From a virus, in the IMG/VR virus record IMGVR_UViG_3300025890_002989, positions 1 to 24,133 of that record: DNA of 24,133 nt. The stretch is one strand, 5' to 3'. A program made the translations under genes and the position numbers. The notes under the pieces were generated by a model. That model saw only the letters and a list, made by a program, of their open reading frames with translations, did no database searches and was not told the origin of the DNA. Below, in pieces: positions 1 to 13,994 of this stretch (positions are counted from its first letter, which is position 1; each line of letters opens with the position of its first letter).

Positions 1-55
1 ATTTCCATCCAATAGTTTCATTGAGTACAGCAATGTCAAATTTTTTATAATTCAT
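1..55 (-). CDS. Partial CDS, N-terminus of unknown protein
   Basis: Only the first 18 codons are inside the window, beginning MNYKKFDIAVLNETIGWK. The ATG (55-53) overlaps the TAA of the preceding gene as TAATG, the same tight junction seen throughout this window, so the start is credible. Nothing can be said about function from so short a fragment. Confidence 0.5.
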   Translation of the reverse strand, partial: MNYKKFDIAVLNETIGWK

Positions 56-243
56 TATACAAGCACCAAGATTGCTAACAGAGTTCCGAAGATAACCATT
101 GAACCGATAAAAGATCCGATCACACCTTGCATGAACGTCTCATCAAAATTTTGATCAGCGAACATAGGATTCTCAACAGGCTTCCGACGATCTTTAGGAA
201 TGTACACCGATCCCACTTCATGATTCAGTTTAACTCTATCCAT
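55..243 (-). CDS. Small C-terminal membrane-anchor protein, 62 aa
   Basis: A 62-aa protein with a charged N-terminal half (about residues 1-38) and one hydrophobic segment at the very C-terminus (about 40-62, ending LAILVLV), so it is probably a tail-anchored inner-membrane protein. It has its own promoter-like element upstream (TATAAT at 273-278) and a Shine-Dalgarno AGGAG at 252-256, 8 nt before the ATG. That makes it one of the few genes here not simply coupled to its upstream neighbour. The next gene starts at its stop codon (TAATG). I do not recognise the family and assign no function. Confidence 0.7.
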   Translation of the reverse strand: MDRVKLNHEVGSVYIPKDRRKPVENPMFADQNFDETFMQGVIGSFIGSMVIFGTLLAILVLV

Positions 244-251
244 TACGCCAA

Positions 252-320
252 CTCCTTTTTGCTTACAAGGTAATTATACCCCGCAAAGTCCTGAAATAAA
301 ACCACAGCTAAGTTATTGAT
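252..320 (-). promoter_or_regulatory. Promoter/leader cassette, copy A
   Basis: Read on the minus strand, this 87-bp intergenic gap has a TATAAT -10 box (273-278), a 16-nt spacer, and TTTATT as a weak -35 (295-300). A conserved CAATAACTTA block lies farther upstream (309-318) and a leader TAAGCAAAAAGGAG downstream (252-265) ends in the Shine-Dalgarno of the 62-aa gene. The same parts in the same order and near-identical spacing occur at 725-793 before the 128-aa gene. The match to a sigma70 -10 is perfect and the -35 is poor, so an additional upstream factor could be involved; that is inference. Confidence 0.65.
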
Positions 321-330
321 ATTCTTCAAA

Positions 331-717
331 TTAACCAGCAGCAACTCTAGTGATATGGCCGTTTACAGGAAAGATTTCTTGGAAACCCTCACCAGTACAG
401 AGAAGAAATTTACCACCAGCAACTTCAAGGATATCACCAATTGACAAGGAAGCGACCCGAGCACCGATTTTGCAAACTCGGTCAGGATCATTCCAGAGGT
501 TCATCAGAACGAACGCTTCTTCAGGATCATCCGTTTTGCAAGTAGCGACCAATTCATATTGGTAAAACCACTTAGCAGCATCAAATCGACCATCATCGAT
601 CATCCAACTGCAACCCTTATCAGCGTAAGCCGTAGTGGTTTCATTAGCCATCCAACCATCACGATTAATGAGGTCAGACAATTCGTCAGAGAGGTGCCAC
701 TGGTATACTGCGATCAT
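331..717 (-). CDS. Conserved-type phage hypothetical, 128 aa
   Basis: A soluble 128-aa protein without signal peptide or membrane segment. The C-terminal third (about residues 90-122, around SLSIGDILEVAGGKFLLCT and the following GF) looks like the short beta-rich 'S-x-GD' ending found in several uncharacterised phage proteins; this is pattern memory, not a search. It has a dedicated promoter-like cassette (TATAAT at 746-751) and a Shine-Dalgarno AAGGA at 725-729, 7 nt before the ATG. Sharing that cassette with the 62-aa gene suggests the two are expressed under the same conditions. Function unknown. Confidence 0.7.
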   Translation of the reverse strand: MIAVYQWHLSDELSDLINRDGWMANETTTAYADKGCSWMIDDGRFDAAKWFYQYELVATCKTDDPEEAFVLMNLWNDPDRVCKIGARVASLSIGDILEVAGGKFLLCTGEGFQEIFPVNGHITRVAAG

Positions 718-724
718 ATTTCCG

Positions 725-793
725 TCCTTTTTTGCTTATGATATTATTATACCATACGAAATGACGAATTAAAACTAGAGGTAAGTTATTGAT
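725..793 (-). promoter_or_regulatory. Promoter/leader cassette, copy B
   Basis: On the minus strand: CAATAACTTA (782-791), TTTAAT as a -35-like box (768-773), a 16-nt spacer, TATAAT (746-751), then 7 nt to a TAAGCAAAAAAGGA leader carrying the Shine-Dalgarno (725-729). Copy A at 252-320 has the same blocks at the same spacing, including GG immediately before TATAAT. The upstream block overlaps the end of the exonuclease gene (stop at 786-788), so part of the signal lies in coding sequence. Confidence 0.65.
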
Positions 794-1442
794 TTTCGAA
801 GAGTTTTATTGTCTTGAGGAGTTCTGGAGCCCATTTATCTCTATGTTCCACAAACACTTGGGGCTTGGCGTCGTCTACTGCGACTATGGTAACGAGTTGG
901 GTAATTGGCATTCTGGTGCGTTCTTCCCACATGATCGCGTAGGCAGACTCTTGTTGAAAGTAGTTAGTGATATACTTTCGGAGTTTTGGTTTTCGACTGG
1001 TTTTAAAGTCAATGATTGAATCCTTGCCGTCAAATTGAGCAACGCAATCAACGCGCCCAGCGACGCGTAAATGATCAGAATAGAGAGGAAGTTCTTGACC
1101 ATAGACTACTCCAATTCGTTCGTCTAGAATTTTTTTGACTGATAAAAAATTACCAATAATGTTCGGCATATAACTAGATTGATACTCTGGATCGTTGTTT
1201 ATGTACTTCTCAATTATCTCATGAACCGCAGTTCCCCGAGTGGCCGCTCGATAAGAGATCTTATCTGCTTCCTCATCGCCCACTTTTGCTCGCCACTTGG
1301 CGATACCTTCTTCGCTTAATACACTGAGGACAGTTGTAATTGACGGGTATAGATTCGAACCAGAACGATAATGCCTCTTATTGTTTTTCTGTTCTGTTAA
1401 TAAATCATCGTACCCTAGATCGACTGGAGCGTGTTTAAACAT
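786..1442 (-). CDS. PD-(D/E)XK exonuclease, RecB/Cas4-like
   Basis: A 218-aa single-domain nuclease. Visible motifs in order: RGTAVHE at 69-75 (the RGxxxH...E motif of RecB/Cas4-type nucleases), GRVD at 129-132 (metal-binding Asp), IIDFKT at 143-148 (the D-x-K core), and QQESAYA at 163-169 (the downstream Q...Y helix). This set is diagnostic of the RecB-type PD-(D/E)XK superfamily, which acts on DNA ends with divalent metal. I see no four-cysteine Fe-S cluster of the Cas4 type. Such short exonucleases are common in marine T4-like phages and probably serve recombination or host DNA degradation. It lies at the end of the sugar island, 1 nt after the preceding gene. Confidence 0.85.
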   Translation of the reverse strand: MFKHAPVDLGYDDLLTEQKNNKRHYRSGSNLYPSITTVLSVLSEEGIAKWRAKVGDEEADKISYRAATRGTAVHEIIEKYINNDPEYQSSYMPNIIGNFLSVKKILDERIGVVYGQELPLYSDHLRVAGRVDCVAQFDGKDSIIDFKTSRKPKLRKYITNYFQQESAYAIMWEERTRMPITQLVTIVAVDDAKPQVFVEHRDKWAPELLKTIKLFENQ

Positions 1443-1443: not shown

Positions 1444-2202
1444 TTATCCTAATATACCCTTTCGAAGTTGGGCTTCATAGGCCCTTTTTTGTTGGCGGTT
1501 CATATTGTTAATTTGTTCTTTCGAAACAACCGGACCCGAAGACTTTATCTTACTCTTCTTTTTTTCTTCTTTCAAGTCATATGTCTCGACAGATATATTA
1601 TCTCGATTAGTGATTTTAAGATTATTGTGATTGTGATGAAGAATAAATTTAGTTCCTGTTTTTTGTTCAGCTTCTTTAAAGATACCGTTCCACACAGGTC
1701 GCCAATTCTCTATCAACCTAAAATTGTTTATGTTTCCTCTGTCGCTGTTCAAGTAAAGGTCCGTAACTGACCGCATATTAAAATCAAATAGCGTATCAAA
1801 CCCATACATATGTACAACGTCTGCTTTCTTTTTATGGACGGCATAATGTACTGCCATCATTCCGCAGTTGAAGTTGGTTGCATTCTTAGCATACTTGGGA
1901 ACATCTGTATAAAATTCGCGAACGTTTGCAGCATATTTTAAATAGAAGTTTGATTGTTTTGGGTCGCTCATCCAGATCTTAGGTCGAGTGCCAAGGATCC
2001 ACGGGTACATATCTAGGTTCAAGGAGCCTTCGGTAAGAGCCATCATCATCTTAAAATCAACCATGGCGGTCGCGTAAACTTCGTTTGCAGGCATATCAAA
2101 AGGAGGCATGTTACAGATTATTTTTTTGCCTGCCCTTTCTCGAAATTTGTATACCGCTGCTAAATCGCCGTTACCAATTATGTGCCAAACTTTTTCAGCC
2201 AT
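1444..2202 (-). CDS. GT29/DUF115-like transferase candidate, 252 aa
   Basis: N-terminal nucleotide-binding-like turn IIGNGD (8-13). A second block at about 112-140 (NCGMMAVHYAV followed by VVHMYGFD) corresponds in layout to the C-terminal motif of DUF115/sialyltransferase-fold proteins, where a small-residue helix leads into a strand ending G-x-D. The 206-aa protein at 13374-13994 has the same two-motif plan. The last about 45 residues are lysine-rich and end in NMNRQQKRAYEAQLRKG, probably a disordered tail. It overlaps the upstream GT8 gene by 8 nt. A glycan-modifying role fits the context; donor and acceptor are unknown. Confidence 0.5.
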   Translation of the reverse strand: MAEKVWHIIGNGDLAAVYKFRERAGKKIICNMPPFDMPANEVYATAMVDFKMMMALTEGSLNLDMYPWILGTRPKIWMSDPKQSNFYLKYAANVREFYTDVPKYAKNATNFNCGMMAVHYAVHKKKADVVHMYGFDTLFDFNMRSVTDLYLNSDRGNINNFRLIENWRPVWNGIFKEAEQKTGTKFILHHNHNNLKITNRDNISVETYDLKEEKKKSKIKSSGPVVSKEQINNMNRQQKRAYEAQLRKGILG

Positions 2203-2857
2203 TATATATTTTTTTCCTTATTATGTTATTACCTTTCTCACCAGTCCAGTGCATAATTCTTTTTTTATTGCTATCGGTAGAATCGTGTTGAACATCAATT
2301 CGAAGCCAGTTATACATATGAGGCAGCTGGCAGATGTGAGTAACCTGATTAAGCGGATTACCCATCATAAAATGTAAAACTTCTTGATCGCCTTGATTTG
2401 GTTTCTTGGCGCATGCATCGATCCATGCGTTTAATATTCTTGGTTTATCTATAATTGCCATAACACCCGAATTAAACCATTTCTCTCCAGAACGTTTAGA
2501 CCATGGTCTGTCTTCGCACATCCCGAGCTTGTCTGGTTCGCAATGATTCCATATGTCTTCGATATTTTCTAGAACTTCGCAATCAGTATCAAGCCAACAG
2601 AGTTTTTTTGCGTTGATAAGTTGCAGTGTTTTGGGCTTGAGAAACCAGCCGTTTACTCTTTGTTTAGGAATACTAATTATATCATCAAATGTGCTTATCT
2701 TGTGTATCCATTCAAGCATTTCTGCAGAAACGCCAAAGTCTGCAAAAACAATAGGGATTGTTTTATTGTGTTTTTTAAAATTTTTGTGGAACCATTCTAG
2801 CTGCCACTCAGTCTTTTCATCACATCCTGTAACAAAAACTTTATCGTACGATTTCAT
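2195..2857 (-). CDS. GT8-like glycosyltransferase, 220 aa
   Basis: A GT-A-fold glycosyltransferase. WLDTDCEVL at 88-96 carries the DxD metal/nucleotide-sugar motif (D90, D92). FNSGVM at 128-133 is the 'NsG' motif of family 8, GDQEVL at 156-161 matches the 'DQ' helix, and HWTGEKG at 203-209 matches the closing H-x-x-G-x-x-K loop of glycogenin-like enzymes. All key motifs are intact, so it is likely active with a UDP- or similar nucleotide sugar. It overlaps the upstream GT25 gene by 17 nt, so the two are almost certainly co-translated. Acceptor unknown. Confidence 0.8.
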   Translation of the reverse strand: MKSYDKVFVTGCDEKTEWQLEWFHKNFKKHNKTIPIVFADFGVSAEMLEWIHKISTFDDIISIPKQRVNGWFLKPKTLQLINAKKLCWLDTDCEVLENIEDIWNHCEPDKLGMCEDRPWSKRSGEKWFNSGVMAIIDKPRILNAWIDACAKKPNQGDQEVLHFMMGNPLNQVTHICQLPHMYNWLRIDVQHDSTDSNKKRIMHWTGEKGNNIIRKKIYNG

Positions 2858-3488
2858 AACCTACCCCATCATGCCAATTATGTTTCGCCAAACAACCTTG
2901 CGTTTTCTGTATTGTGGTGAAAGAGTCTTTTGCGACTACTGGCCAAGGGTAATACTCTTGCAACCAAGGGAATTTGTCAAGGTGTAAGAAAACGTCTGTT
3001 GGCCCACCATCAACTTTCGCGCGCGCGATCAGCTCTTTAGCGCCAGCTGGTTTTATTCGATACGCATGCGCCCCAGGAAAGTAACGCTTGGAAACAAGAG
3101 GATTAGTTCCTAACATTAGTGGGGTGTTGAAGTTGCCATAACTTGGTTTGCCTAAAGATATCGCTTTGTCATAATTTATAAACTCAGGTAACTCTCCAAC
3201 GCAGAAAGCATCGTGCTCGAAGATTTGATATTCTACTTTATCCTCTACACATTTTTTCCATAGAGCATAATGAGAAAGAAACGCCGCAATGCAGGACTCA
3301 AGATAAGAATACTTTTCTTGGAACCCAGAAACAGGTATTGATTCTATTTTCAATATCTCTAGAGGGTTGTCCTTTGGAGTAATGCCGTAGAACTTTAATA
3401 CTTTAAAATCTGGCATCGATCGAATACATCTTTCTGCAGCTTGCTCAGAAAGACTATTGTCTTTTATAGTTATTACGAATGATTTCAT
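2841..3488 (-). CDS. GT25-like glycosyltransferase, 215 aa
   Basis: Family 25 (LPS/LOS-type) glycosyltransferase. Motifs: CIAAFLSHYALWKKC at 66-80 (the 'GC..SH...w' helix of GT25), FEHDA at 90-94 (acidic metal site), GAHAYRIKPAGAKELI at 139-154 (the 'G..aY.is..GA..ll' motif), and PTDVFL at 163-168 (the 'p.D..l' motif). Family members transfer galactose or other sugars to lipooligosaccharide or to collagen. Two related genes lie at 3485-4186 and 10513-11232. It overlaps both neighbours (4 nt upstream, 17 nt downstream). Confidence 0.78.
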   Translation of the reverse strand: MKSFVITIKDNSLSEQAAERCIRSMPDFKVLKFYGITPKDNPLEILKIESIPVSGFQEKYSYLESCIAAFLSHYALWKKCVEDKVEYQIFEHDAFCVGELPEFINYDKAISLGKPSYGNFNTPLMLGTNPLVSKRYFPGAHAYRIKPAGAKELIARAKVDGGPTDVFLHLDKFPWLQEYYPWPVVAKDSFTTIQKTQGCLAKHNWHDGVGYEIVR

Positions 3489-4186
3489 AATGTAGTAGTA
3501 GTTGAAACTAACCCTTGCACTTTTGTATAATATTTTTTAGTTTGACCCAACATTCCAGGTAGTAGTTGTTTGCACATAATAGCGTCGTTGGGCCAAATGC
3601 CATGCTGATCAACCAGCTCAATAAGTTTTTGTGCACCAAGGGGTTTTATATAGTAGGCTGAATTGCCTGCAAGTCCTTGTGGCACATGTTGTTCATCAAT
3701 ATATGGAGGAGGAGCAATTGTGTAATTTCTTGCTTGTGCTAAGTTATGATATTCTTGCGAGCGCCTCGTTGCGCCTCGAGGATCGTTAATCCCAATGATC
3801 TGGTACTTAGATTTTTCTAGATGATCCCAATTTACTTTATTAACAAATTCCACATCATGTTCTAGAATAAGAAAATGCTCTTGTGTTTCCACGCATTCTT
3901 GCCAGAGGAGATAATGAGAAAAGAAACAAGCAATACGAGTATCGGTATTTCCAACATAGGGCGAAAGACTCAGGCCTGTTGAAAAATCAAGCCTAGGTTC
4001 TTTCGTCGGATATGTGTATGATAACCCATACTTCTGTTGCAGATCTTCAATTTCCCATGGGCGTATAGCTTTAAATATGTTCATCCAAAACGCAGGGCCA
4101 TTAACCTTTCTTGCACTACGGCGACAGGCGTGATAACCTCTTTCTGAAATCCCATTTCCGTGCATTACAATAATTTTTACTTTCAT
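3485..4186 (-). CDS. GT25-like glycosyltransferase, 233 aa
   Basis: Second GT25-like gene, adjacent to the first. RIACFFSHYLLWQECV at 84-99 is the SH helix, LEHDVEF at 108-114 the acidic motif, GNSAYYIKPLGAQKLI at 174-189 the 'Y.i...GA..l' motif, and PNDAIM at 199-204 the D motif. I start it at the ATG at 4186 (protein MKVKIIVM), 1 nt after the stop of the upstream HAD gene. A longer reading from 4213 would overlap the HAD domain and adds residues not expected before the first beta strand. Compared with the 215-aa paralogue it carries a longer region (about 125-170) between motifs, which may set acceptor specificity. Confidence 0.75.
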   Translation of the reverse strand: MKVKIIVMHGNGISERGYHACRRSARKVNGPAFWMNIFKAIRPWEIEDLQQKYGLSYTYPTKEPRLDFSTGLSLSPYVGNTDTRIACFFSHYLLWQECVETQEHFLILEHDVEFVNKVNWDHLEKSKYQIIGINDPRGATRRSQEYHNLAQARNYTIAPPPYIDEQHVPQGLAGNSAYYIKPLGAQKLIELVDQHGIWPNDAIMCKQLLPGMLGQTKKYYTKVQGLVSTTTTL

Positions 4187-4187
4187 T

Positions 4188-4469
4188 TTAAAATATCCAT
4201 TCCGCCTTATCATCTACCCACACATCATAATGCGGTTTGTTCATCCATAATTCTGTATACCGAACACCCCAGTCTTCTAATTGTTGCTTAGTAAGTGCGC
4301 TCCAGTCTTTTCCAGAGACAGCGCCGCGAGCTGTCCAGTAAATAATCTCATGCCCCGCGTCATATAAAGCGTTTATTTTTTCAACGTGTTTTCTAATCGC
4401 CAATGCAGTATAATAATTACCGTCTAATGTTAAACAGATAGTCTTATCTATGTCGACAATAAATCTCAT
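4188..4469 (-). CDS. Small HAD phosphatase, 93 aa
   Basis: A cap-less HAD-superfamily hydrolase. Motif I is DIDKT (6-10, DxDxT with the nucleophile at D6), motif II is the Thr of YWTARG (T46), Lys lies in MNKPHYD (K78), and motif IV is the acidic pair D86-D87 in WVDDKA. The start at 4469 is chosen because it begins directly at the first beta strand; a longer frame open to 4592 runs back inside the cupin gene. At 93 residues it is about the minimal Rossmannoid core. It lacks the Cys/His zinc loop of GmhB, so it is not a straightforward heptose-bisphosphate phosphatase. Next to a sugar kinase and nucleotidyltransferase, a sugar-phosphate phosphatase role is a reasonable inference. Confidence 0.75.
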   Translation of the reverse strand: MRFIVDIDKTICLTLDGNYYTALAIRKHVEKINALYDAGHEIIYWTARGAVSGKDWSALTKQQLEDWGVRYTELWMNKPHYDVWVDDKAEWIF

Positions 4470-4471
4470 TT

Positions 4472-4825
4472 TTATTTTTTTCCTTTTCCTACTCTGTAAT
4501 TGTCCTCTACAGAATCTGGTGTCGACACCTCGATAATAGTGCCCTGTTCGAGACAGTAGAGCTGATGCGGGAGCATAGGTTCGTTTCTCCATACATCGCC
4601 AGTATTTAGGATTTTTTCTGAAACGCTAGCGTCAGACGTGTCTATTAATTTTAGAATAAATTTGCCAGACAACACGTACCAAGTTTCGTCTTTCTCTTTA
4701 TGCATGTGCATAGAAAACGAACAACCAGAATTAAAGTTCATTAATTTTCCGCAATACAGTTCGTTGGTCGCCCAGATTATTTCTGAACCCCACGCTTTCT
4801 TCACGGTTCCTTCTAATCTAGTCAT
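4472..4825 (-). CDS. Cupin, sugar-phosphate isomerase-like
   Basis: A 117-aa single-domain cupin. Motif 1 is HMHKEKDETWYVLSG (40-54) with metal ligands H40, H42 and E47; motif 2 is GDVWRNEPMLPHQL (76-89) with H87. The N-terminal AWGSEIIWA and CGKLM resemble the cupin domain of type II mannose-6-phosphate isomerases and related sugar-locus cupins. All four metal ligands are present, so an active enzyme is plausible: an isomerase or epimerase acting on a sugar phosphate or nucleotide sugar. Its ATG overlaps the kinase stop (ATGA) and the HAD gene begins 2 nt after its own stop, placing it firmly in the activated-sugar unit. Confidence 0.72.
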   Translation of the reverse strand: MTRLEGTVKKAWGSEIIWATNELYCGKLMNFNSGCSFSMHMHKEKDETWYVLSGKFILKLIDTSDASVSEKILNTGDVWRNEPMLPHQLYCLEQGTIIEVSTPDSVEDNYRVGKGKK

Positions 4826-5574
4826 ATCTCCTCCAGTGTCGGAGCATAAACTCCTAAGTGTTGTACAGTAACTGCTGCAGCTCTCATGGCAAATTCGATT
4901 GCGTCAGACTTACTATTTGTTTGAAGAAACTTCACAATAAATGCAGCAAAGAAAGTATCTCCGGCTCCGCAGACATCAACCATCTCAATTTCAGGAGGAG
5001 TCCATTCTTCTTTGCCAGATATAATCTTACCGCCACCTCCAGTAACGATTAATTGATCTGGAGTAGGATGGTCGCTTGTTCTACGGTTCCACTCATCAGT
5101 ATTTATTTTAGTAATAATTCCGTCAAATTGTTTGAGGTCTGGCTTCTTGGTATCGATAAACATTGGGCAATGGCAGTTAGCTCGAATATATCTTATCGCG
5201 TCATAAGATATAAACCCTTTGTTATAATCAGAGATGACAACGGCGGCGGGGTTCTCGCCTGAGATTTCTTCGGGATCAAACGGATGCCATCCAACTAGAG
5301 GGATGTCAACTCGCAACAGCTGGTGCTGTCCACTAAAATATCTTATTTTTTGTTCGACATACCTCGTATGAAGATCGATCTCTGCTCCAAAATTTTCTAA
5401 ATTGGCAGCAACGTTCATTGCCATACCTTCTCGGCACGTTTCAATTCCTGGCCAGTCTAAAACAGGAACAGGAGCCTCTGGACTTATTCGGTTAACAGTC
5501 CCAGATCTATACGCGTCCCAACAGGTTTCGCCGATTAATATAATCTTCAAGGGTGTTTGTGGTAGCTTCATCAT
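4822..5574 (-). CDS. HldE-type (PfkB-fold) sugar kinase, compact
   Basis: Ribokinase/PfkB-fold kinase of the HldE N-domain type. Evidence: ILIGETCWDAY (12-22), the near-signature RISPEAPVPVL (29-39) typical of heptose-7-phosphate kinases, GMAMNVAANL (50-59) where the family usually has GGAANVA, RVD (88-90), VVISDYNKG (112-120), and the ATP-site DVCGAGDTFFA (200-210) with catalytic D206. At 250 aa it is shorter than the usual approximately 310-320-aa kinase domain. The segment between NFGAEIDLHT and the following RYVEQKIRYF appears to lack the usual 'GDDEAG' region. The first 68 nt overlap the nucleotidyltransferase gene. Substrate by family: a heptose-7-phosphate or related sugar phosphate. 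Confidence 0.8.
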   Translation of the reverse strand: MMKLPQTPLKIILIGETCWDAYRSGTVNRISPEAPVPVLDWPGIETCREGMAMNVAANLENFGAEIDLHTRYVEQKIRYFSGQHQLLRVDIPLVGWHPFDPEEISGENPAAVVISDYNKGFISYDAIRYIRANCHCPMFIDTKKPDLKQFDGIITKINTDEWNRRTSDHPTPDQLIVTGGGGKIISGKEEWTPPEIEMVDVCGAGDTFFAAFIVKFLQTNSKSDAIEFAMRAAAVTVQHLGVYAPTLEEI

Positions 5575-5968
5575 TTACTCTTTCAAAAAAATCGATATCG
5601 ATTAGATCTTCACCAACAATATCTTTGCCTTTCCAATCGGATCCAATAACCCTCACGTCTGCTCTAGACATAAGAGAAATCAATTCAACGTCGCTGTTAA
5701 ATGACCAAACTTCGTTAATGTCAATTATACGAGACAAAATCTTGGCTCTAACCGGCAAAGGGTTAACTGGGCGATCTATTCCTTTATTCTGCCGTATTCT
5801 TTCGTCACTATCAATAGCGCAGATAACATATCCTAAAGACTTGGCGTACATGAACAAATCGATGTGGCCTGTATGTAGAATGTCAAACGCGCCATTCACT
5901 AAAACTTTTGTCTTATGATTTAAACACAGAGTCTCGGGATTAGAAGGATAGAGAGGAGTAGCTTTCAT
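5507..5968 (-). CDS. HldE C-domain-like sugar nucleotidyltransferase
   Basis: A 153-aa cytidylyltransferase-fold enzyme. VNGAFDILHTGH at 24-35 contains the (H/T)xGH nucleotide motif. SDERIRQNKG (54-63) with PVNPLPVRAKIL (67-78) matches the 'sD.svr..KG..RPv.p...R...l' region of HldE C-domains, and VIGSDWKG (107-114) matches the 'kGgDy' motif region. In bacteria this domain makes ADP-heptose from heptose-1-phosphate, usually fused behind the kinase; here it is a separate gene placed before the kinase. Its ATG overlaps the methyltransferase stop (TAATG). Whether ATP or CTP is used cannot be read from the sequence. Confidence 0.8.
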   Translation of the reverse strand: MKATPLYPSNPETLCLNHKTKVLVNGAFDILHTGHIDLFMYAKSLGYVICAIDSDERIRQNKGIDRPVNPLPVRAKILSRIIDINEVWSFNSDVELISLMSRADVRVIGSDWKGKDIVGEDLIDIDFFERVNDEATTNTLEDYINRRNLLGRV

Positions 5969-6471
5969 TAAACTTTTCGAGCTGTCGCGTAGAACGAATG
6001 GTTAAGGTCAAAACCGTCGGTAACAATAACTTCTCTCCATTTTCCTCTAGATTGAAGGCAATCACGAATGATATGAGGTTCTAAAACGTTTACGTGTTTT
6101 CGGTTATGCCAAGGTTTCCAGTACTCTTGCTGATAACTAGGTAGGTATAAAAACAGAAGACCACCAACTTTTAATTGTTCATACCAGTAGTCTAAAACAC
6201 CAACCCAGTCGGATAGATGCTCGAGACAATGTGAAGAGAAAACATAGTCTAATTCATTTTCAGGAAGGTTCAAGGCGTGCCATTCATCGTCAAAGTCTAA
6301 GTCTACAGGTATTGCTCCTGGAAACGCCCATTCCGGTTTCATACATCCAACATCAACACCTTTACCTTTCAATAACTTCGAAGCAAATGGAAATGCGTAT
6401 TGAGATGCAAATCCTTCTTGTTGCAGTTTCGGGTAAATCTTACCTCCAAATTGTATCGTGTGATCGCTCAT
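5968..6471 (-). CDS. SAM-dependent methyltransferase, 167 aa
   Basis: Class I methyltransferase of the Methyltransf_11 type. GVDVGC at 38-43 is motif I (SAM glycine loop, degenerate), DLDFD at 57-61 follows strand 2, and VFSSHCLEHL at 77-86 is the typical 'd.V....vlEH' motif. A W/H/Y-rich stretch, including WKPWHNRKHV at about 118-127, follows. I start at 6471: that ATG overlaps the previous stop as ATGA and has AGGA 8 nt upstream, whereas the ATG at 6486 lies inside the previous gene. The location suggests it methylates a sugar or nucleotide-sugar intermediate, but the substrate is unknown. Confidence 0.75.
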   Translation of the reverse strand: MSDHTIQFGGKIYPKLQQEGFASQYAFPFASKLLKGKGVDVGCMKPEWAFPGAIPVDLDFDDEWHALNLPENELDYVFSSHCLEHLSDWVGVLDYWYEQLKVGGLLFLYLPSYQQEYWKPWHNRKHVNVLEPHIIRDCLQSRGKWREVIVTDGFDLNHSFYATARKV

Positions 6472-7268
6472 AATAATTTCCTGCATGCATTAAAAATCAT
6501 ATCAACTGTCATCCATTCATTGGCGTCAGCACAATGTGAACATTCGTAAGTGTTACCGCAGGGCGACTCTGGATGATCATATTCTATATTGATATGACCA
6601 GGATATTCGCCAATCGTTGTGTTTGCTATACCACCCTGTAAAACAACGCAAGGTATACCCATACCTCCTAGTGCGTGGATAAACATTCCGATATATCCAA
6701 CACCGAATTTCGCGTTTCTTAACATGGCAAAAGAAACACGAACGTCTGTGCTCTCAATATTTATCGCGCCTTTAATTAAAGGCTCTTTGTAGATCCCTTT
6801 AGGCATTATTCGAACACAAGGCAGGTCAACAAGGCCGTCAAGCCTGTCTACTAACTCTTGATACTTCTTGATCCCCCAGTTTTTATTCGAACCGAAGAAT
6901 GTTTTTTTAAAGTCAGGATTAATCGCAACAAACTCTTTTGGTACATTGTGTTCTTCTAAAATTTTATCTGCGGTTTCTAATTCTTTCTCGGTGAATCGAA
7001 TATGAAAAGGTTTAATCTTATATGGCCGCCAGACCATTTTCTTACCCAGAATAGTCCTTTTCTCTTCTGAGCACATATACTGTATTCTATAGTCTGTTTT
7101 TTCTGGAGTGGTGTCTCTTGTGTTGACAGTTACTCCGCTGTCCGATAGAAACTCAACGTTATTAAAAAGAGGAGATTTACCACTACCAACTGGCCTTACC
7201 AGTTGGCCAGTTTCTTTAAAGATTTTCTCCGCTTCGCCGAGAAAAAACATATCATCCCCCATTCCCAT
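6468..7268 (-). CDS. GT9-like (heptosyltransferase-fold) transferase
   Basis: A 266-aa GT-B-fold protein resembling family 9, the ADP-heptose:LPS heptosyltransferases. The start MGMGDDMFFLGEA (1-13) corresponds to the family's N-terminal 'GiGD.i...' loop. VAINPDF (114-120) and NKNWGIKKYQELVDRL (128-143) match the 'i...p....k.W....f..L...L' region. GYIGMFIHALGGMGIPCVVLQGG (191-213) corresponds to the 'D.G..H.a.alg.p.v.lfg' donor site, although the usual Asp is replaced (YIG). The C-terminal CGNTYECSHC (237-246) is a possible zinc or disulfide site. It is shorter than typical heptosyltransferases (about 320-350 aa). It starts 1 nt after the previous stop. Confidence 0.68.
   Translation of the reverse strand: MGMGDDMFFLGEAEKIFKETGQLVRPVGSGKSPLFNNVEFLSDSGVTVNTRDTTPEKTDYRIQYMCSEEKRTILGKKMVWRPYKIKPFHIRFTEKELETADKILEEHNVPKEFVAINPDFKKTFFGSNKNWGIKKYQELVDRLDGLVDLPCVRIMPKGIYKEPLIKGAINIESTDVRVSFAMLRNAKFGVGYIGMFIHALGGMGIPCVVLQGGIANTTIGEYPGHINIEYDHPESPCGNTYECSHCADANEWMTVDMIFNACRKLL
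7186..7206. repeat. Inverted repeat inside the GT9-like gene
   Basis: CCAACTGG (7186-7193) and CCAGTTGG (7199-7206) form a perfect 8-bp inverted repeat with a 5-nt loop. It lies wholly within coding sequence, near residues 20-28 of the GT9-like protein. No U-tract follows on either strand, so it is not a terminator. It could fold in the mRNA near the 5' end of the gene. Confidence 0.4.
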
Positions 7269-7269
7269 T

Positions 7270-7920
7270 TTAACTGCTAATACGTTTTGTTGGTCCAGGA
7301 GGTTTCTCTTGAATATCTCCTAAGTCATCTTCAGTGGCGTCACGGGCGATCACTGCATGTCCGGCACCTCCTCCAGTTAACCGTTCAACAACGGACCATT
7401 CGGGATTGTTTTGGCAAAATTCTTCAATGACTTTAAGTAAAGCCCAATCGTTTTGTTTTATATCATGAAAGGCAATGTACTTCTTAACAGACATATGATG
7501 TGTTTGTAGTTCTTTTTTTAAATGAGAGGGGTGGTGCAAACTGTCGATATGAAGCATATCGACAGAACTAACAGTTGATACATCTAAAGAACTGACGCCA
7601 TGGCTTTTTAATGTCTTTCCTTTACGTTCACAATATTCTACTAATAAAGGTTTCAGATATTTTTTAAAGTGATTCAGGTTAATATCGATCCCAACGCCGT
7701 GTTTAACGCTGTCTTGAATCATCATTGCCATTAATGAACTGCCTTGGAATATTCCAATTTCTTTAACAGATTCACATTTGGCTGCATATCGCATTAGAGA
7801 ACGCAAACGCTTAAACGAATTTTGTCTTTCCTCTGCGATGTCTTTGGTGAGAAGAGTTTCTTGTATAGCCTGAGCTTCCTCGACCGTGTTTGCTGATTTA
7901 TATTCTTCCCATGCTCTCAT
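7270..7920 (-). CDS. Methyltransf_24-like methyltransferase, 216 aa
   Basis: Class I SAM methyltransferase of the O-methyltransferase / cephalosporin-hydroxylase-like group. VKEIGIFQGSS (52-62) is motif I ('iEiG...G.S'), VGIDI (76-80) is the strand-2 acidic residue, VDMLHIDSLHH (120-130) is the metal/substrate motif ('d.ihIDg.H'), and YIAFHDI (148-154) is the following 'G....DD'-like strand. The set is well preserved. Proteins of this type methylate small hydroxylated molecules including sugars. It lies between two GT9-like genes, which argues for a glycan substrate. The last about 20 residues are proline/lysine-rich and probably disordered. Confidence 0.72.
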   Translation of the reverse strand: MRAWEEYKSANTVEEAQAIQETLLTKDIAEERQNSFKRLRSLMRYAAKCESVKEIGIFQGSSLMAMMIQDSVKHGVGIDINLNHFKKYLKPLLVEYCERKGKTLKSHGVSSLDVSTVSSVDMLHIDSLHHPSHLKKELQTHHMSVKKYIAFHDIKQNDWALLKVIEEFCQNNPEWSVVERLTGGGAGHAVIARDATEDDLGDIQEKPPGPTKRISS

Positions 7921-7930
7921 AATTTATTCC

Positions 7931-8725
7931 TTATGTGTAAGTATTAACTTTAGCGCCATGTTTATGCATGCGATACACATGATGCGAAGATTTACCTTTG
8001 ATGTTTCCTATTGGATTATAAATGTCTATTAAATTCCATGCAACATATAATGAAGCCATATGCAACATGCCGGAATCGATTCCAACATGACCTTCAGAGT
8101 TTGCCATACAAAACCCAACGTGTTTTAAAGAATTTCTTAAGTGGCGGCTTTTAGCCTGTCCACCGACGACTACTAGGTCTAGTCCTTTTATTCTATACTC
8201 ATTTTCAATTTTATTCAACATTAACGGAGACAATTGTCTACTGCTGTCAGCTGAATCCCATTGAACAGTTACATACCTCTGAGGCAAAACAATTTCACTA
8301 GAACAATCAATTGGTTCAAGTTTTGGTGACTCTGTAAGGTATTCATCCGCGTCAATAAGGTCAATGCCTTTAACTGGACCAAGAGGTTGTAGATCAATAT
8401 GATCTTTATAGTAGTAAGTCTGTGGATCTTCGACCCCTTGATTTTTAAGATATTCTAACCAATCTGGTTCTGATAAACCGCAGACTGGCCATGCTTTAAC
8501 TTTGACTTTACCTCGAGTCATTTCACTCAATGCTGCCCATGTGTCTTTCTTAGCTTGCTTACCATATTTGTCAGAGGTTAAATGTAGAACAACATCACAC
8601 ATATGTGCATCTGCATATTTCTGGCCAAATAGAACCGCGTGTATCCTATCGCCTACTCCTGGAGTTGTATAGGGCACGCCCTTTCGCCACATAGACATCG
8701 AACGTATTGCGATGTTTTTTACCAT
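7931..8725 (-). CDS. GT9-like glycosyltransferase, 264 aa
   Basis: A GT-B-like protein with a recognisable C-terminal donor site: YVTVQWDSADSSRQLSP (151-167) in the position of the family 9 'i.p.....r.....' strand, LVVVGGQAKS (184-193), and GHVGIDSGMLHMA (212-224), very close to the 'fvG.DSGl.HlA' motif of heptosyltransferases. The N-terminal TTPGVGDRIHAVLFG (20-34) carries the expected GxGD loop. This donor site is better preserved than in the GT9-like gene at 6468-7268. The start at 8725 overlaps the upstream methyltransferase gene by 7 nt. It likely uses a nucleotide-activated heptose-like sugar; acceptor unknown. Confidence 0.68.
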   Translation of the reverse strand: MVKNIAIRSMSMWRKGVPYTTPGVGDRIHAVLFGQKYADAHMCDVVLHLTSDKYGKQAKKDTWAALSEMTRGKVKVKAWPVCGLSEPDWLEYLKNQGVEDPQTYYYKDHIDLQPLGPVKGIDLIDADEYLTESPKLEPIDCSSEIVLPQRYVTVQWDSADSSRQLSPLMLNKIENEYRIKGLDLVVVGGQAKSRHLRNSLKHVGFCMANSEGHVGIDSGMLHMASLYVAWNLIDIYNPIGNIKGKSSHHVYRMHKHGAKVNTYT

Positions 8726-9576
8726 TGGGCATTGCCTAATTCAATTTCATATCTTGTAGCGTTACAAGGCGAGTCAAATTCTGTTGGATAAACTTCTTCC
8801 GATTCATCCCATTCTACTAGATCATTGCGTATCCATGTGACCTCAAAGGTCTCCGCCACTGGAGGTTTACCTGGAATCTTATAGAAACCTGACCAATTGT
8901 TTGCATGTACATGGCAAGGAGTAAAGTGTTTTCGAAGTTTCTGTAGCGCGTTCTCGATAAGGTCTGTGGTATGTGCTTGTGAAAAATAAGAAACAAACCA
9001 ATGCATCTCTACACAAAGCTGAGAAAAACCTTTAAGGTCGTCTGGATTCATAGAAGAAAAGACATCCCATTCTGCTCCTTCACAGTCCATCTGCAAAAGC
9101 ATGTTGTCTTCATTAGAATGGTTATTGTTCGCGATCATTGTCTTTAAGGTCTGCAGTTCACCCTTGTTTTTAGGACCAATCCCTATTTTTTGAATTGTTC
9201 GGTTTGGTGTAGCAAACCTGCTACCGTCAACAGTATGATCATACATCCATATATGGTGACCATATGCTTCAATTGCCTCTTCAAACTTAACTGTCTTACC
9301 AATGCCAATAGAATAGGCAACCTTGCCGCCTTTTAAGAGATCTTCTATAAAAACATATCCACCATCATTCTGTTCGCCGATTCTAACTTTTTTCATTCCC
9401 TTTGGTTTTTTAGGATTTAATAGCGACATTACATCATATATTCTGTCCTGATTGTTTAAAAAATTAGCAAGTTGAAAAGGCGAGTTAATTTTTTTCCATA
9501 TCGTCGAAGGATGATCAACCCTGAAGGTTTTTTCCTTCTTATCTTTTTTATTCATTTGTTGGAATATTTCATTCAT
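8719..9576 (-). CDS. FkbM-type methyltransferase, 285 aa
   Basis: Methyltransferase of the FkbM/Methyltransf_21 type. EQNDGGYVF (68-76) and AYSIGIGKTV (87-96) cover the N-terminal region and the SAM-loop strand, and MDCEGAEWDVF (163-173) is the family hallmark 'iDvEGaE..vl'. LCVEMHW (187-193) is the next strand ('i..E.h'). FkbM-family enzymes methylate hydroxyl groups of sugars and polyketides. The first about 60 residues are lysine-rich and precede the domain; an internal ATG at residue 8 is an alternative start. It overlaps the radical SAM gene by 8 nt. Confidence 0.72.
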   Translation of the reverse strand: MNEIFQQMNKKDKKEKTFRVDHPSTIWKKINSPFQLANFLNNQDRIYDVMSLLNPKKPKGMKKVRIGEQNDGGYVFIEDLLKGGKVAYSIGIGKTVKFEEAIEAYGHHIWMYDHTVDGSRFATPNRTIQKIGIGPKNKGELQTLKTMIANNNHSNEDNMLLQMDCEGAEWDVFSSMNPDDLKGFSQLCVEMHWFVSYFSQAHTTDLIENALQKLRKHFTPCHVHANNWSGFYKIPGKPPVAETFEVTWIRNDLVEWDESEEVYPTEFDSPCNATRYEIELGNAQW

Positions 9577-10525
9577 CAGTTGTAGATCCTAGTGCGTTAA
9601 TAAAATCGAAAGATGGTTTACCAAATAATGTACCATCTACATTACATTTATTACAAGGTTTTTCTGTGCGGTTGCCTTTTTTTAACTTGTTTCTTATCTT
9701 TGTCATTGGTTTGCCAAACCAAACATCACTCAGGCTTTGTGTAATCAAATTACCCACCACTTGCTCTCTGTTCCAATCATTGCAACAAAGAATACAATCA
9801 CCGTTCCAATCAACAAACATCTTATAGAATGGATAGTAACAGGGCTTGTCCTTGACAGCTTCAATTGTCGACTCGTCAATACCCATCCAGTCAACAACGC
9901 CACTTCGATTGTTTAACACGAGGCCATGGTTCTCCATACCGCCCCAGTGCACTCTATACTTATACCTCTCTTGAGAAATGCCGGCAAGATCAAACAACTC
10001 GTCAAAATGGTCTACCTGTTCCATACCATCATACAGATTCACATAGATGATCGACATACCTGCATCAAAGATTCTTCGAGCGTAGTGCTCGTCTAGCTTG
10101 TCGCCGTTGGTGTTACACTCAATGACATTACTTGGTCTGTGTTTACGAAACACACTAATAATCTCTGGGAACCAAGGGTTTAGAAGATTCTCGCCGAAGC
10201 CACTAAAAGATATCTTACCTTCGAAGGAAGAACGCTCGAGCTCCTCTGCAATGATTGTAGCGCCTTTGACTGTTAGATGTAGGTTACGATTATCATAGAC
10301 TTTTGGGTCGTGTCGAGGACAGAACACACAGGTTCGATTGCATAGTTCTGTAGTATTAATCTCGATCGTCAAAATAGAGTTCAATGCATTTCGTTCTTTA
10401 ATTTTATCCCAATGCTCGAGCTCTTGTTTTTTTCGATGTTCAATCATTTCCCATTGATCAACTGCGACCATTGGTATACGATTATTACCTTCTGCTCCTG
10501 GAATCTTAGCCACTATAAACCCCAA
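9569..10525 (-). CDS. Radical SAM protein with SPASM-like C-terminus
   Basis: A 318-aa radical SAM enzyme. TTELCNRTCVFCP (58-70) gives the CxxxCxxC cluster motif (C62, C66, C69). FSGFGENLL (108-116) matches the 'sGGEPll' SAM-binding strand and ECNTNGD (136-142) the next conserved turn. At the C-terminus C229, C244, C247, C248, C291 and C294, with VDWNGDCILCCNDW (238-251), form a SPASM/twitch-type auxiliary-cluster region. Such enzymes modify peptides, proteins or sugars by radical chemistry. No obvious precursor peptide lies beside it; the neighbours are glycosyl- and methyltransferases, so a sugar or glycoprotein substrate is my preferred reading. It overlaps the upstream GT25 gene by 13 nt. 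Confidence 0.85.
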   Translation of the reverse strand: MGFIVAKIPGAEGNNRIPMVAVDQWEMIEHRKKQELEHWDKIKERNALNSILTIEINTTELCNRTCVFCPRHDPKVYDNRNLHLTVKGATIIAEELERSSFEGKISFSGFGENLLNPWFPEIISVFRKHRPSNVIECNTNGDKLDEHYARRIFDAGMSIIYVNLYDGMEQVDHFDELFDLAGISQERYKYRVHWGGMENHGLVLNNRSGVVDWMGIDESTIEAVKDKPCYYPFYKMFVDWNGDCILCCNDWNREQVVGNLITQSLSDVWFGKPMTKIRNKLKKGNRTEKPCNKCNVDGTLFGKPSFDFINALGSTTDE

Positions 10526-11232
10526 CTCGTTGTAACATATTGCGTATTGAAAACAACAGGGCTGGGGTTAATGTACTCAACCTTGCAATTCTTTGTGTTT
10601 AATATAAAATCTGACTGGTCCAAGCCAATAGTCAATGCAGCCTCGAGCATTTTCTTTGCTCCTGCTGGTGTGATAGCATATGCAGCAGTTCCAGGAACCA
10701 TATAAGAATTCTCCCAAACGTTAGGTTTATTATACACTAACGGATAAGATTTATCATCCAAAAGATTGTTATACTTTTCTTTCATTGAAACAGGATAGTT
10801 CCGTATTCCTTTCTGCACTGGATATTTTTTATTGGTAAAAGCGTCACCCATATTCAGTATAAGATAATCTTCAAATTCATATTCTTCAGCGTCAGCAATA
10901 CAAATTATATCGTGTTCAATAAAACATTGCGTTTCGTTAGACTCTATGACTTTCTTCCAGAAATATAGATGATTGTATACACAAGCTCTTTTAGTTTGCC
11001 AGACTTGATCGTTTCCACTGTGCATCATCCATAGTCGACCTTTCTTAGCAAACTTTGTATCAAAATCATTTCGTAGCCGAGCACCTTTCACTAGATCATC
11101 AAAGTCTGAACGAACAACGCCCTCTACTAGAGAAACATCCCATCCGTTATGCGCTCTAAACGACTCTAATGATTCCTTTCCAACCCTTTTAGAATCGGGG
11201 TTGGAAGGAGTGTAGATAATCTGAGCTTTCAT
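10513..11232 (-). CDS. GT25-like glycosyltransferase, 239 aa
   Basis: Third GT25-like gene. RACVYNHLYFWKKV (82-95) is the SH-helix equivalent (His retained, Ser replaced by Asn), CFIEHDI (103-109) the acidic motif, GTAAYAITPAGAKKML (181-196) a very clear family motif, and DQSDFIL (205-211) the D motif. The N-terminal half (about 10-70) is longer and more divergent than in the two paralogues at 2841-4186, so acceptor choice may differ. Its ATG overlaps the previous stop as ATGA. Confidence 0.75.
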   Translation of the reverse strand: MKAQIIYTPSNPDSKRVGKESLESFRAHNGWDVSLVEGVVRSDFDDLVKGARLRNDFDTKFAKKGRLWMMHSGNDQVWQTKRACVYNHLYFWKKVIESNETQCFIEHDIICIADAEEYEFEDYLILNMGDAFTNKKYPVQKGIRNYPVSMKEKYNNLLDDKSYPLVYNKPNVWENSYMVPGTAAYAITPAGAKKMLEAALTIGLDQSDFILNTKNCKVEYINPSPVVFNTQYVTTSWGL

Positions 11233-12014
11233 AACTTTTTAAGTAGTTCTTTGAAGTTTTCACCTCGAGCCGGCAGTTTATCCTTTAAGAAAAAATGCAC
11301 GAAAGAGCATTCTTTAATCTTTGTATTGGCGGTAAACAAACCATTCCACTTCCAATGCAGATCTTTGGTGGGCACTTTTGAATTGTATATGAAATAATTA
11401 AGCAGAGTCTGATCTGTGCTCCATTTCCACGCACCCTGACCGTCGACAAAGTCAGTAAACTCGTTCTGCATAATCCAATCTTTTGGAGACAAACCTTTTA
11501 GGAATGGTTCGAATTGCGCAGAGTTAAGAAGAATCAAGCCCATGTTATAGAAAGAGTAACCCATCTTAGATACTTCTCGGTATTTTCCTTTCTTGGAAAG
11601 ACCACGATACTGCATTGCAGAATAATTGATTATCTTCGCAATGTACTGATCGGTGATAGGCATTGAGGATTCAAGGACAGCACCAAAGGCATGGTCGGTA
11701 CCAAAGTCTTCGAATATATTTTCTGCAGACTCACGAATGTAAATATCAGCGTCGACAATTGCAATCTGATCATATTCTTTTAGATGTACAAAAGCGTTTT
11801 CTTTTTCGTAGATGGGAAGAAACCCACCATGTTTTTCATAAGACTCTTTACTGCGGTTTGTTGTAAAGACATTTGGCTTGATACGAAGGATAGGAGTTCT
11901 TTGTACAATGTGCTCGATGTTATGACGAGCACAATACTTTGCTACCGAATCAACACAACCATCATATAACTTAGATTTCTTGCCTACGTAAACTTGATAT
12001 ATCAATCTTCTCAT
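11229..12014 (-). CDS. GT8-like glycosyltransferase, 261 aa
   Basis: GT-A-fold transferase: IAIVDADIYI (84-93) carries the DxD motif (D88, D90), YNMGLILLN (156-164) is the 'N.Gv.l.n' motif, STDQTLLNYF (199-208) the DQ motif, and VHFFLKDKLP (239-248) a closing H...K loop. It starts at 12014, and the last 44 nt of a small basic reading frame (11971-12129) overlap it in another frame. It is only distantly similar to the GT8-like proteins at 2195 and 12718, so these look like separate acquisitions or old duplicates. Confidence 0.75.
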   Translation of the reverse strand: MRRLIYQVYVGKKSKLYDGCVDSVAKYCARHNIEHIVQRTPILRIKPNVFTTNRSKESYEKHGGFLPIYEKENAFVHLKEYDQIAIVDADIYIRESAENIFEDFGTDHAFGAVLESSMPITDQYIAKIINYSAMQYRGLSKKGKYREVSKMGYSFYNMGLILLNSAQFEPFLKGLSPKDWIMQNEFTDFVDGQGAWKWSTDQTLLNYFIYNSKVPTKDLHWKWNGLFTANTKIKECSFVHFFLKDKLPARGENFKELLKKL

Positions 12015-12129
12015 GATTTATTTTCTTTCGATTATCAGTTTGTTGATGCCGAACTTTCTTTCGTTCGGCTCTATATTTATCGTTTGTTCTTTTCTTGTTA
12101 CCAGAATCAAATTTAGAATATTTCGCCAC
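11971..12129 (-). CDS. Small basic protein, 52 aa, GTG start
   Basis: A short frame beginning at GTG (12129-12127) with AAGG roughly 10 nt upstream. The protein begins MAKYSKFDSGNKKRTNDK and is very rich in Lys, Arg, Asn and Gln with no hydrophobic segment, suggesting a nucleic-acid-binding or disordered protein. Without it the gap between the 47-aa gene and the GT8 gene would be the longest non-coding stretch in this region. It overlaps the GT8 gene by 44 nt in another frame and contains a hairpin (12048-12069). Function unknown; it could also be a spurious frame. Confidence 0.45.
   Translation of the reverse strand: MAKYSKFDSGNKKRTNDKYRAERKKVRHQQTDNRKKINHEKIDISSLRRQEI
12048..12069 (-). other. 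Stem-loop between lysozyme and GT8 genes
   Basis: GCCGAAC (12048-12054) pairs perfectly with GTTCGGC (12063-12069) around an 8-nt loop. On the minus strand it lies about 34-55 nt before the ATG of the GT8-like gene and inside the 52-aa frame. No U-run follows, so it is not an intrinsic terminator; an mRNA structure affecting processing or translation is possible. Confidence 0.45.
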
Positions 12130-12131
12130 TG

Positions 12132-12275
12132 TTACTTACCTTGACCTCTATATTTTTTATAATTCGCTTTCTTTCTTTTATTCATAGAGGATGTATTTAA
12201 ATGTCCTCTACCAATAGAAGTACCTTTGGGAGCATGCTCTACCTTGTTAGTGTTTGCGCTTCCTCCCTTTGCCAT
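12132..12275 (-). CDS. Small basic protein, 47 aa
   Basis: ATG at 12275-12273 overlaps the lysozyme stop as TAATG. The protein starts MAKGGSANTNKVEHAPKG and ends SSMNKRKKANYKKYRGQGK; it is glycine- and lysine-rich, strongly basic and lacks a hydrophobic core. The SSMNK...KKYRGQGK ending is one I associate with small conserved proteins of marine T4-like phages, though I cannot confirm this by search. A nucleic-acid-binding or virion-packaged role is possible but not shown. Confidence 0.65.
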   Translation of the reverse strand: MAKGGSANTNKVEHAPKGTSIGRGHLNTSSMNKRKKANYKKYRGQGK

Positions 12276-12721
12276 TATACATTCTCCATACGAGACATCA
12301 GTCTTTCTGCGCGATTAGTTACTTGATTATACCACTTCGAATCGCGTCCTTCAAGCGCTGCTGTTTTCCAATCACCGTTTTCTAACGCAGCTGTGAATTT
12401 TTTAAACTTGCTCAGTCTAGTTCTACCCATATTGAACATCATGTTGACCACGACTTGTTGCACTGTATCGGGGAATTCGTCAAAAGTCCCTTCTCCGTAT
12501 AAAGCGTAACACTCTTCGATAGCGGTGCTAAGGTCTTTTTCGAAGCATTCTTTGACTCTTTCTTCTGATACTGGCGTTCCAATATCGGACCCATGCTCAG
12601 GATCTGTTTCGAGCACAAGATGTCCGACCCCAAACGTGGCATATCCCAAGTGGTCGTTGTAAATCTCATATTTGACGCCTTCGTCTACTTTTAGTGTTTC
12701 GAAAATTTCTTCTCTGTTCAT
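12275..12721 (-). CDS. T4-type lysozyme (endolysin, GH24)
   Basis: A 148-aa muramidase that cleaves peptidoglycan at lysis. The catalytic set lines up with T4 lysozyme with a constant offset of three: E14 in VDEGVKYEIY, D23 in YNDHLGYATFGVGH, T29 in the same block (E11/D20/T26 in T4). VNMMFNMGRTRLSKFKKF and the SKWYNQVTNRAERL ending match the T4 C-terminal helices. There is no signal peptide, so it would need a holin for export. It lies between two sugar-transferase genes (ATGA overlap upstream), an odd location since the candidate spanins are about 6 kb away. Confidence 0.92.
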   Translation of the reverse strand: MNREEIFETLKVDEGVKYEIYNDHLGYATFGVGHLVLETDPEHGSDIGTPVSEERVKECFEKDLSTAIEECYALYGEGTFDEFPDTVQQVVVNMMFNMGRTRLSKFKKFTAALENGDWKTAALEGRDSKWYNQVTNRAERLMSRMENV

Positions 12722-13377
12722 TGATTTTCCTTAAGTTGTTTTGCTTCTTGTATCCACTCTTCAGCAAAGTCACAGTTCTCATATTCAGGAAACCATGGTC
12801 CGCCGTCTGTATAATGAATAATGTTTGGTTTATCTATATCGAAATAGTATCCAGACAAATAGTTCCAAGTGTGGTCAATAGAGCCAATTTTATCTGCCCA
12901 TCTCATTTGATGTAAGTAAGAAGGATCGACAATATTAACCATCTCTGGAGTTAGTTTCCAACACGCACGATTATTATAGAGCATAACTGATGACCAATTT
13001 TTTCTTGGATAAACATGCTGTTGTTTACCGTCCATCTTAAATTCGCCTTTGGGGTTATAGTCGTGTTGTACACAACTAACATCACAAGATTCGTCTATGT
13101 TATCCAAGATTTTTAAAACATTAGCGTTACATAAAATATCACAATCAACAAAAAGAGAATATCCTTTATAGTCGCTGAGAAAAGGAACAAGGAATCGAGT
13201 CATTGTGAATTCGGTTGATGCTTTAAGATCGTGTTGTCGACGAAATATACCTTTGTCTATCAACTCAGATCGCACAAGAGGGATAATTTCGACTTCTGTA
13301 GAATGATTTAATATCGATGCTCGTGCAACCTGATACGCTTCATCTTCTCTGGGATCGTAACCAATAAAAACTTTCAT
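12718..13377 (-). CDS. GT8-like glycosyltransferase, 219 aa
   Basis: GT-A-fold transferase. It begins MKVFIGYDPREDEAYQVA (the 'vfiGyD.re..a' opening common in phage and LPS-locus GT8-like proteins). FVDCDILC (76-83) is the DxD motif (D78, D80), NWSSVMLYNN (127-136) the 'sSv.l.n' motif, and IIHYTDGGPWF (186-196) a strongly conserved ending in this group. Motifs are complete. The gene overlaps the sialyltransferase-like gene before it and the lysozyme gene after it by ATGA. Confidence 0.82.
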   Translation of the reverse strand: MKVFIGYDPREDEAYQVARASILNHSTEVEIIPLVRSELIDKGIFRRQHDLKASTEFTMTRFLVPFLSDYKGYSLFVDCDILCNANVLKILDNIDESCDVSCVQHDYNPKGEFKMDGKQQHVYPRKNWSSVMLYNNRACWKLTPEMVNIVDPSYLHQMRWADKIGSIDHTWNYLSGYYFDIDKPNIIHYTDGGPWFPEYENCDFAEEWIQEAKQLKENQ

Positions 13378-13994
13378 TCTACAAATACTATTTTCGTGTT
13401 AAATTCTTTTTCGAAAAGAGGTAACATTTTTTGCTCTACATCATATCTATGATCTCCGTAATTTTTCCAATCCTTGCCTCTTGTGACAGACCAACCAAAC
13501 TTACCGCTGCGCACATTGTCATATCCGAGGAGATAAATCTTAGAAGGTCGAAGGTAATGACAGGTGTAAAGAATTGTATGTGTCCCAGAGGACATATGAT
13601 TGTGTCCTAGGGTTGGGTGCGAATACTTTTGAGATTCTTGAGGGTTCCTTGACCAATCGTCTGTCCTCATATCTCGAAAAGTTTGATTCCAATGACGACA
13701 GAGCTCCTGATTACATTTAACAGTTTCGCTATTGTACTCGGTATCATAGTTTTGAGATTCATGACGACTGTCAATGTAAACCCATTTCTCCACGCCTTTT
13801 AATTTTGACAATTTTTTATACTGATGCGGAGAACCTCCAACAGCGGTGGTCTTGGTACCATACCATTCAGGTTTTTCTTTGACATATTTGATAGAGTTGG
13901 CTTTTTGTCTTATAACATATTTGAACGAATCAATGTATTTGCCATATTGTTTACGAAGTATGCTGGGGCCATGACCAACTATTATAGCTTCCAT
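13374..13994 (-). CDS. GT29/DUF115-like (sialyltransferase-type) protein
   Basis: A 206-aa protein with an N-terminal nucleotide-binding loop IVGHGPSIL (5-13), followed by IDSFKYVIRQK (21-31), which resembles the L-sialylmotif region ('vG.g.sl......iDs...ViR.n'). Near the C-terminus SSGTHTILYTCHYL (135-148) and KIYLLGYDN (152-160) resemble the S-sialylmotif or the DUF115 core. Family 29 enzymes use CMP-sialic acid, but I cannot distinguish that from related nucleotide-sugar transferases. It is the first gene of the sugar island, starting 1 nt after the PhoH stop. Confidence 0.55.
   Translation of the reverse strand: MEAIIVGHGPSILRKQYGKYIDSFKYVIRQKANSIKYVKEKPEWYGTKTTAVGGSPHQYKKLSKLKGVEKWVYIDSRHESQNYDTEYNSETVKCNQELCRHWNQTFRDMRTDDWSRNPQESQKYSHPTLGHNHMSSGTHTILYTCHYLRPSKIYLLGYDNVRSGKFGWSVTRGKDWKNYGDHRYDVEQKMLPLFEKEFNTKIVFVE

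Follow-up and report, generated by a model that had tools for sequence, protein, structure and literature searches.

Two short minus-strand genes in a virus fragment each lie behind a promoter-like cassette, and the two cassettes share a sequence block well upstream of the −10 hexamer. What kind of promoter is this, and what is seated at the upstream block? The DNA examined (the window) is the full public record IMGVR_UViG_3300025890_002989, a virus fragment of 24,133 bp with no near relative among ~50,000 phage records. Its gene content is T4-like, with an exonuclease that matches PHROG 298 (E 1e-69), a PhoH-like protein, an adenosylcobalamin-dependent-type ribonucleotide reductase, and an IscU-like protein. 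The IscU gene (21842–22240, minus strand) scores 222 bits against TIGR01999, exceeding the NCBIfam cut-off for IscU, and the nearest PDB entries are bacterial IscU/NifU-like chains; a phage-encoded IscU hints at a proteobacterial host. Positions 2195–13994 (minus strand) hold a long series of glycosyltransferase-, sugar-nucleotide-, and methyltransferase-like genes, few of them scanned, with a radical SAM protein encoded at 9569–10525 inside the run.

The cassettes occupy positions 321–253 and 794–725 of the minus strand (Table 1). A sequence-only reading of the window had placed the same far-upstream 10-mer in both, and it is present base for base. CAATAACTTA, at 318–309 and 791–782, is followed by TTTATT or TTTAAT, then by 16 nt, and then by TATAAT (278–273 and 751–746) with GG directly before it. 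Seven nucleotides past TATAAT comes TAAGCAAAAA(A)GGA (265–253 and 738–725). This pattern has two matches in the window and none in 100 shuffles. The common upstream block is wider than the 10-mer, reading [AT]ATCAATAACTTA (321–309 and 794–782), and an A/T tract lies 10–13 bp upstream of it in both cassettes. The starts predicted near 265/266 and 739 are consistent with the −10 positions. A matrix derived from the promoter class described below, and trained without the window, gives the cassettes 56.9 and 51.0 bits, compared with at most 11.4 bits for shuffles and less than 0 bits for the best other place in the window (overlaps with the cassettes omitted). A site at 23440–23462 that had been taken for a weaker relative has no IHF-type box (see below) and is not among the top minus-strand matches to the matrix, and we do not count it as a member. 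There is some likeness to a T4 late promoter in its sequence, TATAGATA, but near-matches of this kind occur in the window at the frequency expected by chance (49 vs 42 expected).

Table 1. Genes and predicted promoter elements of the two cassettes (window coordinates).
Feature	Position	Strand	Remarks
62-aa gene	55..243	-	Downstream of cassette 1, read as driven by it
Leader TAAGCAAAAAGGA with Shine-Dalgarno, cassette 1	253..265	-	
GG + −10 hexamer TATAAT, cassette 1	273..280	-	Predicted start near 265/266
−35 region, cassette 1, GTTTTATTT	294..302	-	6 bp past box
IHF-type box, cassette 1, TATCAATAACTTA	309..321	-	13/13 to WATCARNNNNTTR (consensus PMC8421141)
A/T tract (TTAA), cassette 1	331..334	-	−13 to −10 from box; overlaps stop codon of 128-aa gene
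128-aa gene	331..717	-	Downstream of cassette 2, read as driven by it
Leader TAAGCAAAAAAGGA with Shine-Dalgarno, cassette 2	725..738	-	
GG + −10 hexamer TATAAT, cassette 2	746..753	-	Predicted start near 739
−35 region, cassette 2, GTTTTAATT	767..775	-	6 bp past box
IHF-type box, cassette 2, AATCAATAACTTA	782..794	-	13/13; overlaps last codons and stop of 218-aa exonuclease gene
A-tract (AAAA), cassette 2	804..807	-	−13 to −10 from box

Further copies of the cassette, whose absence would have counted against the sequence-only reading, were sought beyond the window, and they are abundant. Scanning IMG/VR with the pattern CAATAACTTA-N24..38-GGTATAAT returned 102 stretches, vs 12 with a scrambled 10-mer and 36 with the box reversed. 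Among the matches, gaps cluster at 24, 25, 27, and 28 nt, mostly with AAT before the 10-mer, and longer gaps look random; the spacing and context of the 36 reversed-box matches are scattered, and we take these to be chance. Class counts were drawn from whole records related to the window, which contain 423 TATAAT sites in 385 kb. WATCAANNNNTTR lies upstream of 36 of these sites, at a distance of 28 bp (n = 1), 29 bp (n = 12), or 30 bp (n = 23), vs two occurrences elsewhere within 80 bp of TATAAT; reversed and scrambled versions give only scattered singles or pairs. In total, these uncultured T4-like phage records, with DNA of ~60% A+T, contain at least 44 non-redundant members of the class. 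In 42 of the 44, a Shine-Dalgarno-like sequence and a frame of at least 35 codons follow, with the start located 29–79 nt past the first base of the −10 hexamer. The suggestion that the cassettes represent a phage promoter class with a common short leader is thus strongly supported.

The genes behind class promoters are mostly small and mostly unannotated. A relative 95% identical to the 62-aa protein is encoded in L141 behind a class cassette with GATCAGTAACTTA, and distant relatives of the 128-aa protein in G010, G011, G012, and L141 are likewise behind class cassettes. One gene behind a class promoter, in G010, resembles the window exonuclease. An unnamed family of ~450–500 aa with an NPxPIxQRG motif is found behind a class promoter in G005 (L117), G002 (L112), and G007 (L119).

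The far-upstream block resembles a binding site for IHF, a DNA-bending protein of bacteria. The 10-mer CAATAACTTA forms the 3′ portion of AATCAATAACTTA, and all 13 positions of the latter agree with the IHF consensus, WATCARNNNNTTR; strong IHF sites have an A-tract to the left of this consensus (PMC8421141). In the class, positions −13 to −10 from the box are A or T in 95–100% of members, placing the tract on the side expected for IHF, and the box occurs in a single orientation. Mismatches to AATCAATAACTTA, counted with no consensus imposed, are never at C4, A5, T11, or T12, and most of them affect positions 1, 7, and 8; the 44-member set was preselected for those four bases, so only this unconstrained count speaks for them. 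Within the 44-member set, G is the only substitute seen at positions 6 and 13. Orthologous promoters were compared in eight sets; counting along the box, the sets that vary at each successive position number 4, 1, 2, 0, 0, 2, 5, 4, 1, 2, 0, 0, and 2, and most of the variation is at the W, N, and R positions, which the IHF consensus leaves flexible. At the N positions TAAC is favored, beyond what a generic IHF consensus demands.

The class matrix also picks out sites in phage lambda. A 27-nt matrix was scanned over 96,950 places in the lambda genome, a test that covers few known sites. The top-ranked place is in attP (27684–27710) and the fourth is at cos (74–100); ranks 3 and 5 are upstream of pL, and rank 11 is the H′ site. 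With the 13-nt box alone, the first rank goes to another attP site (27606–27618). The attP matches fall among int-binding features annotated in the lambda record, and the matched places at cos and upstream of pL are, we assume, IHF sites. Among 500 column-permuted matrices, one put four of its top five places in the attP, cos, and pL regions. The sequence-only reading had suggested that an activator might sit 30 bp before the −10; the seat itself holds up, and its likely occupant, on the best explanation available, is host IHF rather than a phage activator.

The spacing of the elements is tightly constrained on one side of the −35 region. The box lies exactly 6 bp from a GTTT-like −35 in 43 of 44 members, including all 43 with a 29- or 30-bp gap, while the distance from the −35 to the −10 varies by one base, meaning that the box is locked to the −35 and not to the −10. 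Sigma region 4 and the alpha-CTD sit at the −35. The class −35 has GTTT at −36 and is variable thereafter, the register of T4 early promoters. With a matrix of the core only, 51 strong core promoters were recovered, 47 of which have the box, and even a weaker, apparently "boxless" promoter in G005 contains a sequence, TATCAAGGGATTG, that agrees with the IHF consensus. In the class, the 160 bp upstream of the box show no other conserved element. In two members, at 15932–15977 of G007 (L119) and 77163–77208 of G012, the spacer GTTGCCCTTCGGGGCAATTTTT is an intrinsic-terminator-like hairpin between the box and the −10.

The box extends beyond this class. Two further lineages have promoter variants with the same box and TGTACA in the −35 region, located either 4 or 7 bp past the box. 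In the 4-bp variant, the NNNN of the box again varies, with AGAC and TGGC found beside TAAC. Phages with the 4-bp variant encode a DNA polymerase, a UvsX-like recombinase, and a DnaB-like helicase, and those with the 7-bp variant encode a DNA helicase and an SbcC-like protein; for both lineages the closest annotated phages are cyanophages, at <50% identity. The spaced combination of box and promoter is absent from T4, KVP40, HTVC008M, the tested cyanophages, lambda, C48C1, phiM19, and SCTP-2, the last being a Salicola phage with a relative of a downstream protein. A BLAST search of cultured phages for the cassette yielded nothing beyond a match to 42 nt of intergenic DNA in Pseudoalteromonas phage J2-1, which has an IHF-like box and no class promoter. 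As for cellular genomes, near-exact copies occur in only three contigs of ~85,000 bacterial and archaeal species genomes, which agrees with the proposed phage specificity and led us to reject a host promoter origin. By eye, the three are terminator-like (L107), perhaps a chance match (L109), and a tRNA promoter (L108). The last, a single case in the Alphaproteobacteria MAG contig JAIXWE010000084.1 (6645–6690, minus strand), has AATCAATAACTTA and GGTATAAT arranged as in the phage class.

We consider it probable that the cassettes belong to a class of early promoters in uncultured marine T4-like phages, with a bend bound by IHF replacing the UP element of a promoter read by host sigma70. The module would consist of an IHF site (an A-tract plus WATCARNNNNTTR) centered near −49; a weak −35 of T4 early type, GTTTnnTTT from −36; and GGTATAAT, followed by an A-rich leader of ~20 nt with little beyond the Shine-Dalgarno sequence. 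Sigma70 host RNA polymerase would recognize the −35 and −10, and host IHF would cover ~35 bp immediately upstream, from about −77 to −40, bending the DNA by ~160 degrees. In place of the A-rich UP element that T4 early promoters have, the bend may raise initiation, with IHF bringing either the upstream DNA or itself within reach of the alpha-CTD or sigma region 4. IHF binding, activation, and possession of IHF by the host are predicted from the DNA sequence, and we infer early timing from the promoter type and the kind of gene only. A bolder version is that IHF is an obligate, class-II-like co-activator of the whole phage early regulon, touching sigma region 4 or the alpha-CTD at the fixed 6 bp from the −35, such that the UP element has been swapped for a host nucleoid protein and takeover is tied to the IHF level. 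This is conceivable, and we hold it only tentatively, leaning against it.

The proposed arrangement has partial counterparts in known systems. Mu early and lambda pL, two phage sigma70 promoters stimulated by IHF, also have their IHF site upstream; each is a single promoter with the site farther away, whereas the class repeats one fixed module ahead of many genes, its box 6 bp from the −35. T4 early promoters have a GTTTAC −35 at −36 to −31 (PMC1524935), combined with UP elements and TGn (PMC2988021). The class shares with them GTTT at −36, TATAAT, and a position before small genes without known relatives, early in T4 and predicted to be early here, in T4-like phages (PMC1524935, PMC2988021), but it has an IHF-type box where T4 has an A-rich UP element (−40 to −44), and GG rather than TGn before the −10. 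In the promoters of the Caulobacter gene transfer agent, which use IHF and GafY, IHF is required at sigma70 promoters of a phage-like element, and the authors regard sigma70 activation that depends on IHF as rare (PMC11150451). In that system the activator site is far upstream and IHF occupies the stretch between it and the core promoter, whereas the class has no conserved far-upstream element; with no conserved sequence within 160 bp upstream of the box, we rejected an activator looped in by IHF in the Caulobacter manner. T4 middle promoters (MotA box plus −10) are similar in having a T-rich element ~13 bp before the −10 and a weak −35, but the class lacks the TGCTT core of (a/t)(a/t)TGCTT(t/c)a and has the additional conserved IHF-type site. 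We found no earlier description of early promoters of T4 type that incorporate an IHF module in the open-licence literature, and nothing there that matches the 10-mer or IHF at lytic-phage early promoters.

Several other explanations bear on the same observations. The two cassettes form a direct repeat of 69 nt, 473 bp apart, with 74% identity, and had been described as duplicated. Over 71 aligned bases the window pair, with 50 identical, ranks high among class pairs (mean 40.4; 19 of 406 pairs as high), as expected if both arose solely by recent tandem duplication of a single promoter region. However, at least 42 further members are in other records, no similarity is reported between the two downstream proteins, and spacer identity, at 18 of 30, is ordinary for the class (mean 14.3 ± 2.9; 52 of 406 pairs equal or exceed it). 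Duplication is not required, and as the sole explanation it is refuted by the members in other records; we give it almost no weight. Far less remote, if still improbable, is that the box is bound by another protein with an IHF-like preference, either phage-encoded or host-specific (a phage HU/IHF-like protein or a phage activator), and that the promoters are delayed-early or middle. The strong preference for TAAC at the N positions fits such a protein, as does the T-rich −35 region at the place of a MotA box, 13 bp before the −10. The left A-tract, the restriction of positions 6 and 13 to R, and the matches in lambda point instead to IHF, and the box is common to three lineages with different −35 elements. 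Neither a PF00216 (IHF/HU) gene nor a MotA gene was found in 18 records, which are fragments in which a gene could be missed; T4 was positive as a control for MotA. These searches argue against a phage-encoded IHF/HU and, together with the missing TGCTT core, against a MotA system.

A reading that keeps IHF but changes its role is slightly less probable again: bound IHF might mainly keep H-NS-like silencers off the AT-rich phage DNA, with no direct help to polymerase. The base composition of these phages would suit such a role, and there is a precedent in the relief of H-NS repression by IHF at the Mu early promoter (van Ulsen 1996, as cited in PMC6070864). Anti-silencing has no need, however, of a distance to the −35 that is locked to the base pair.

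IHF is known mainly as an accessory factor in recombination, packaging, and sigma54 promoters. A likely IHF site, set a constant distance behind the start signal, means that a bacterial architectural protein is seemingly used to switch on the first phage genes, and suggests that IHF is a routine component of sigma70 early promoters in phages. For a large group of T4-like marine phages that are uncultured, the module would serve as a sequence signature of early promoters, making early genes annotatable from contigs alone. Since the class is absent from the tested cyanophages and pelagiphage, it may also help to infer hosts, i.e., proteobacteria that bear IHF.
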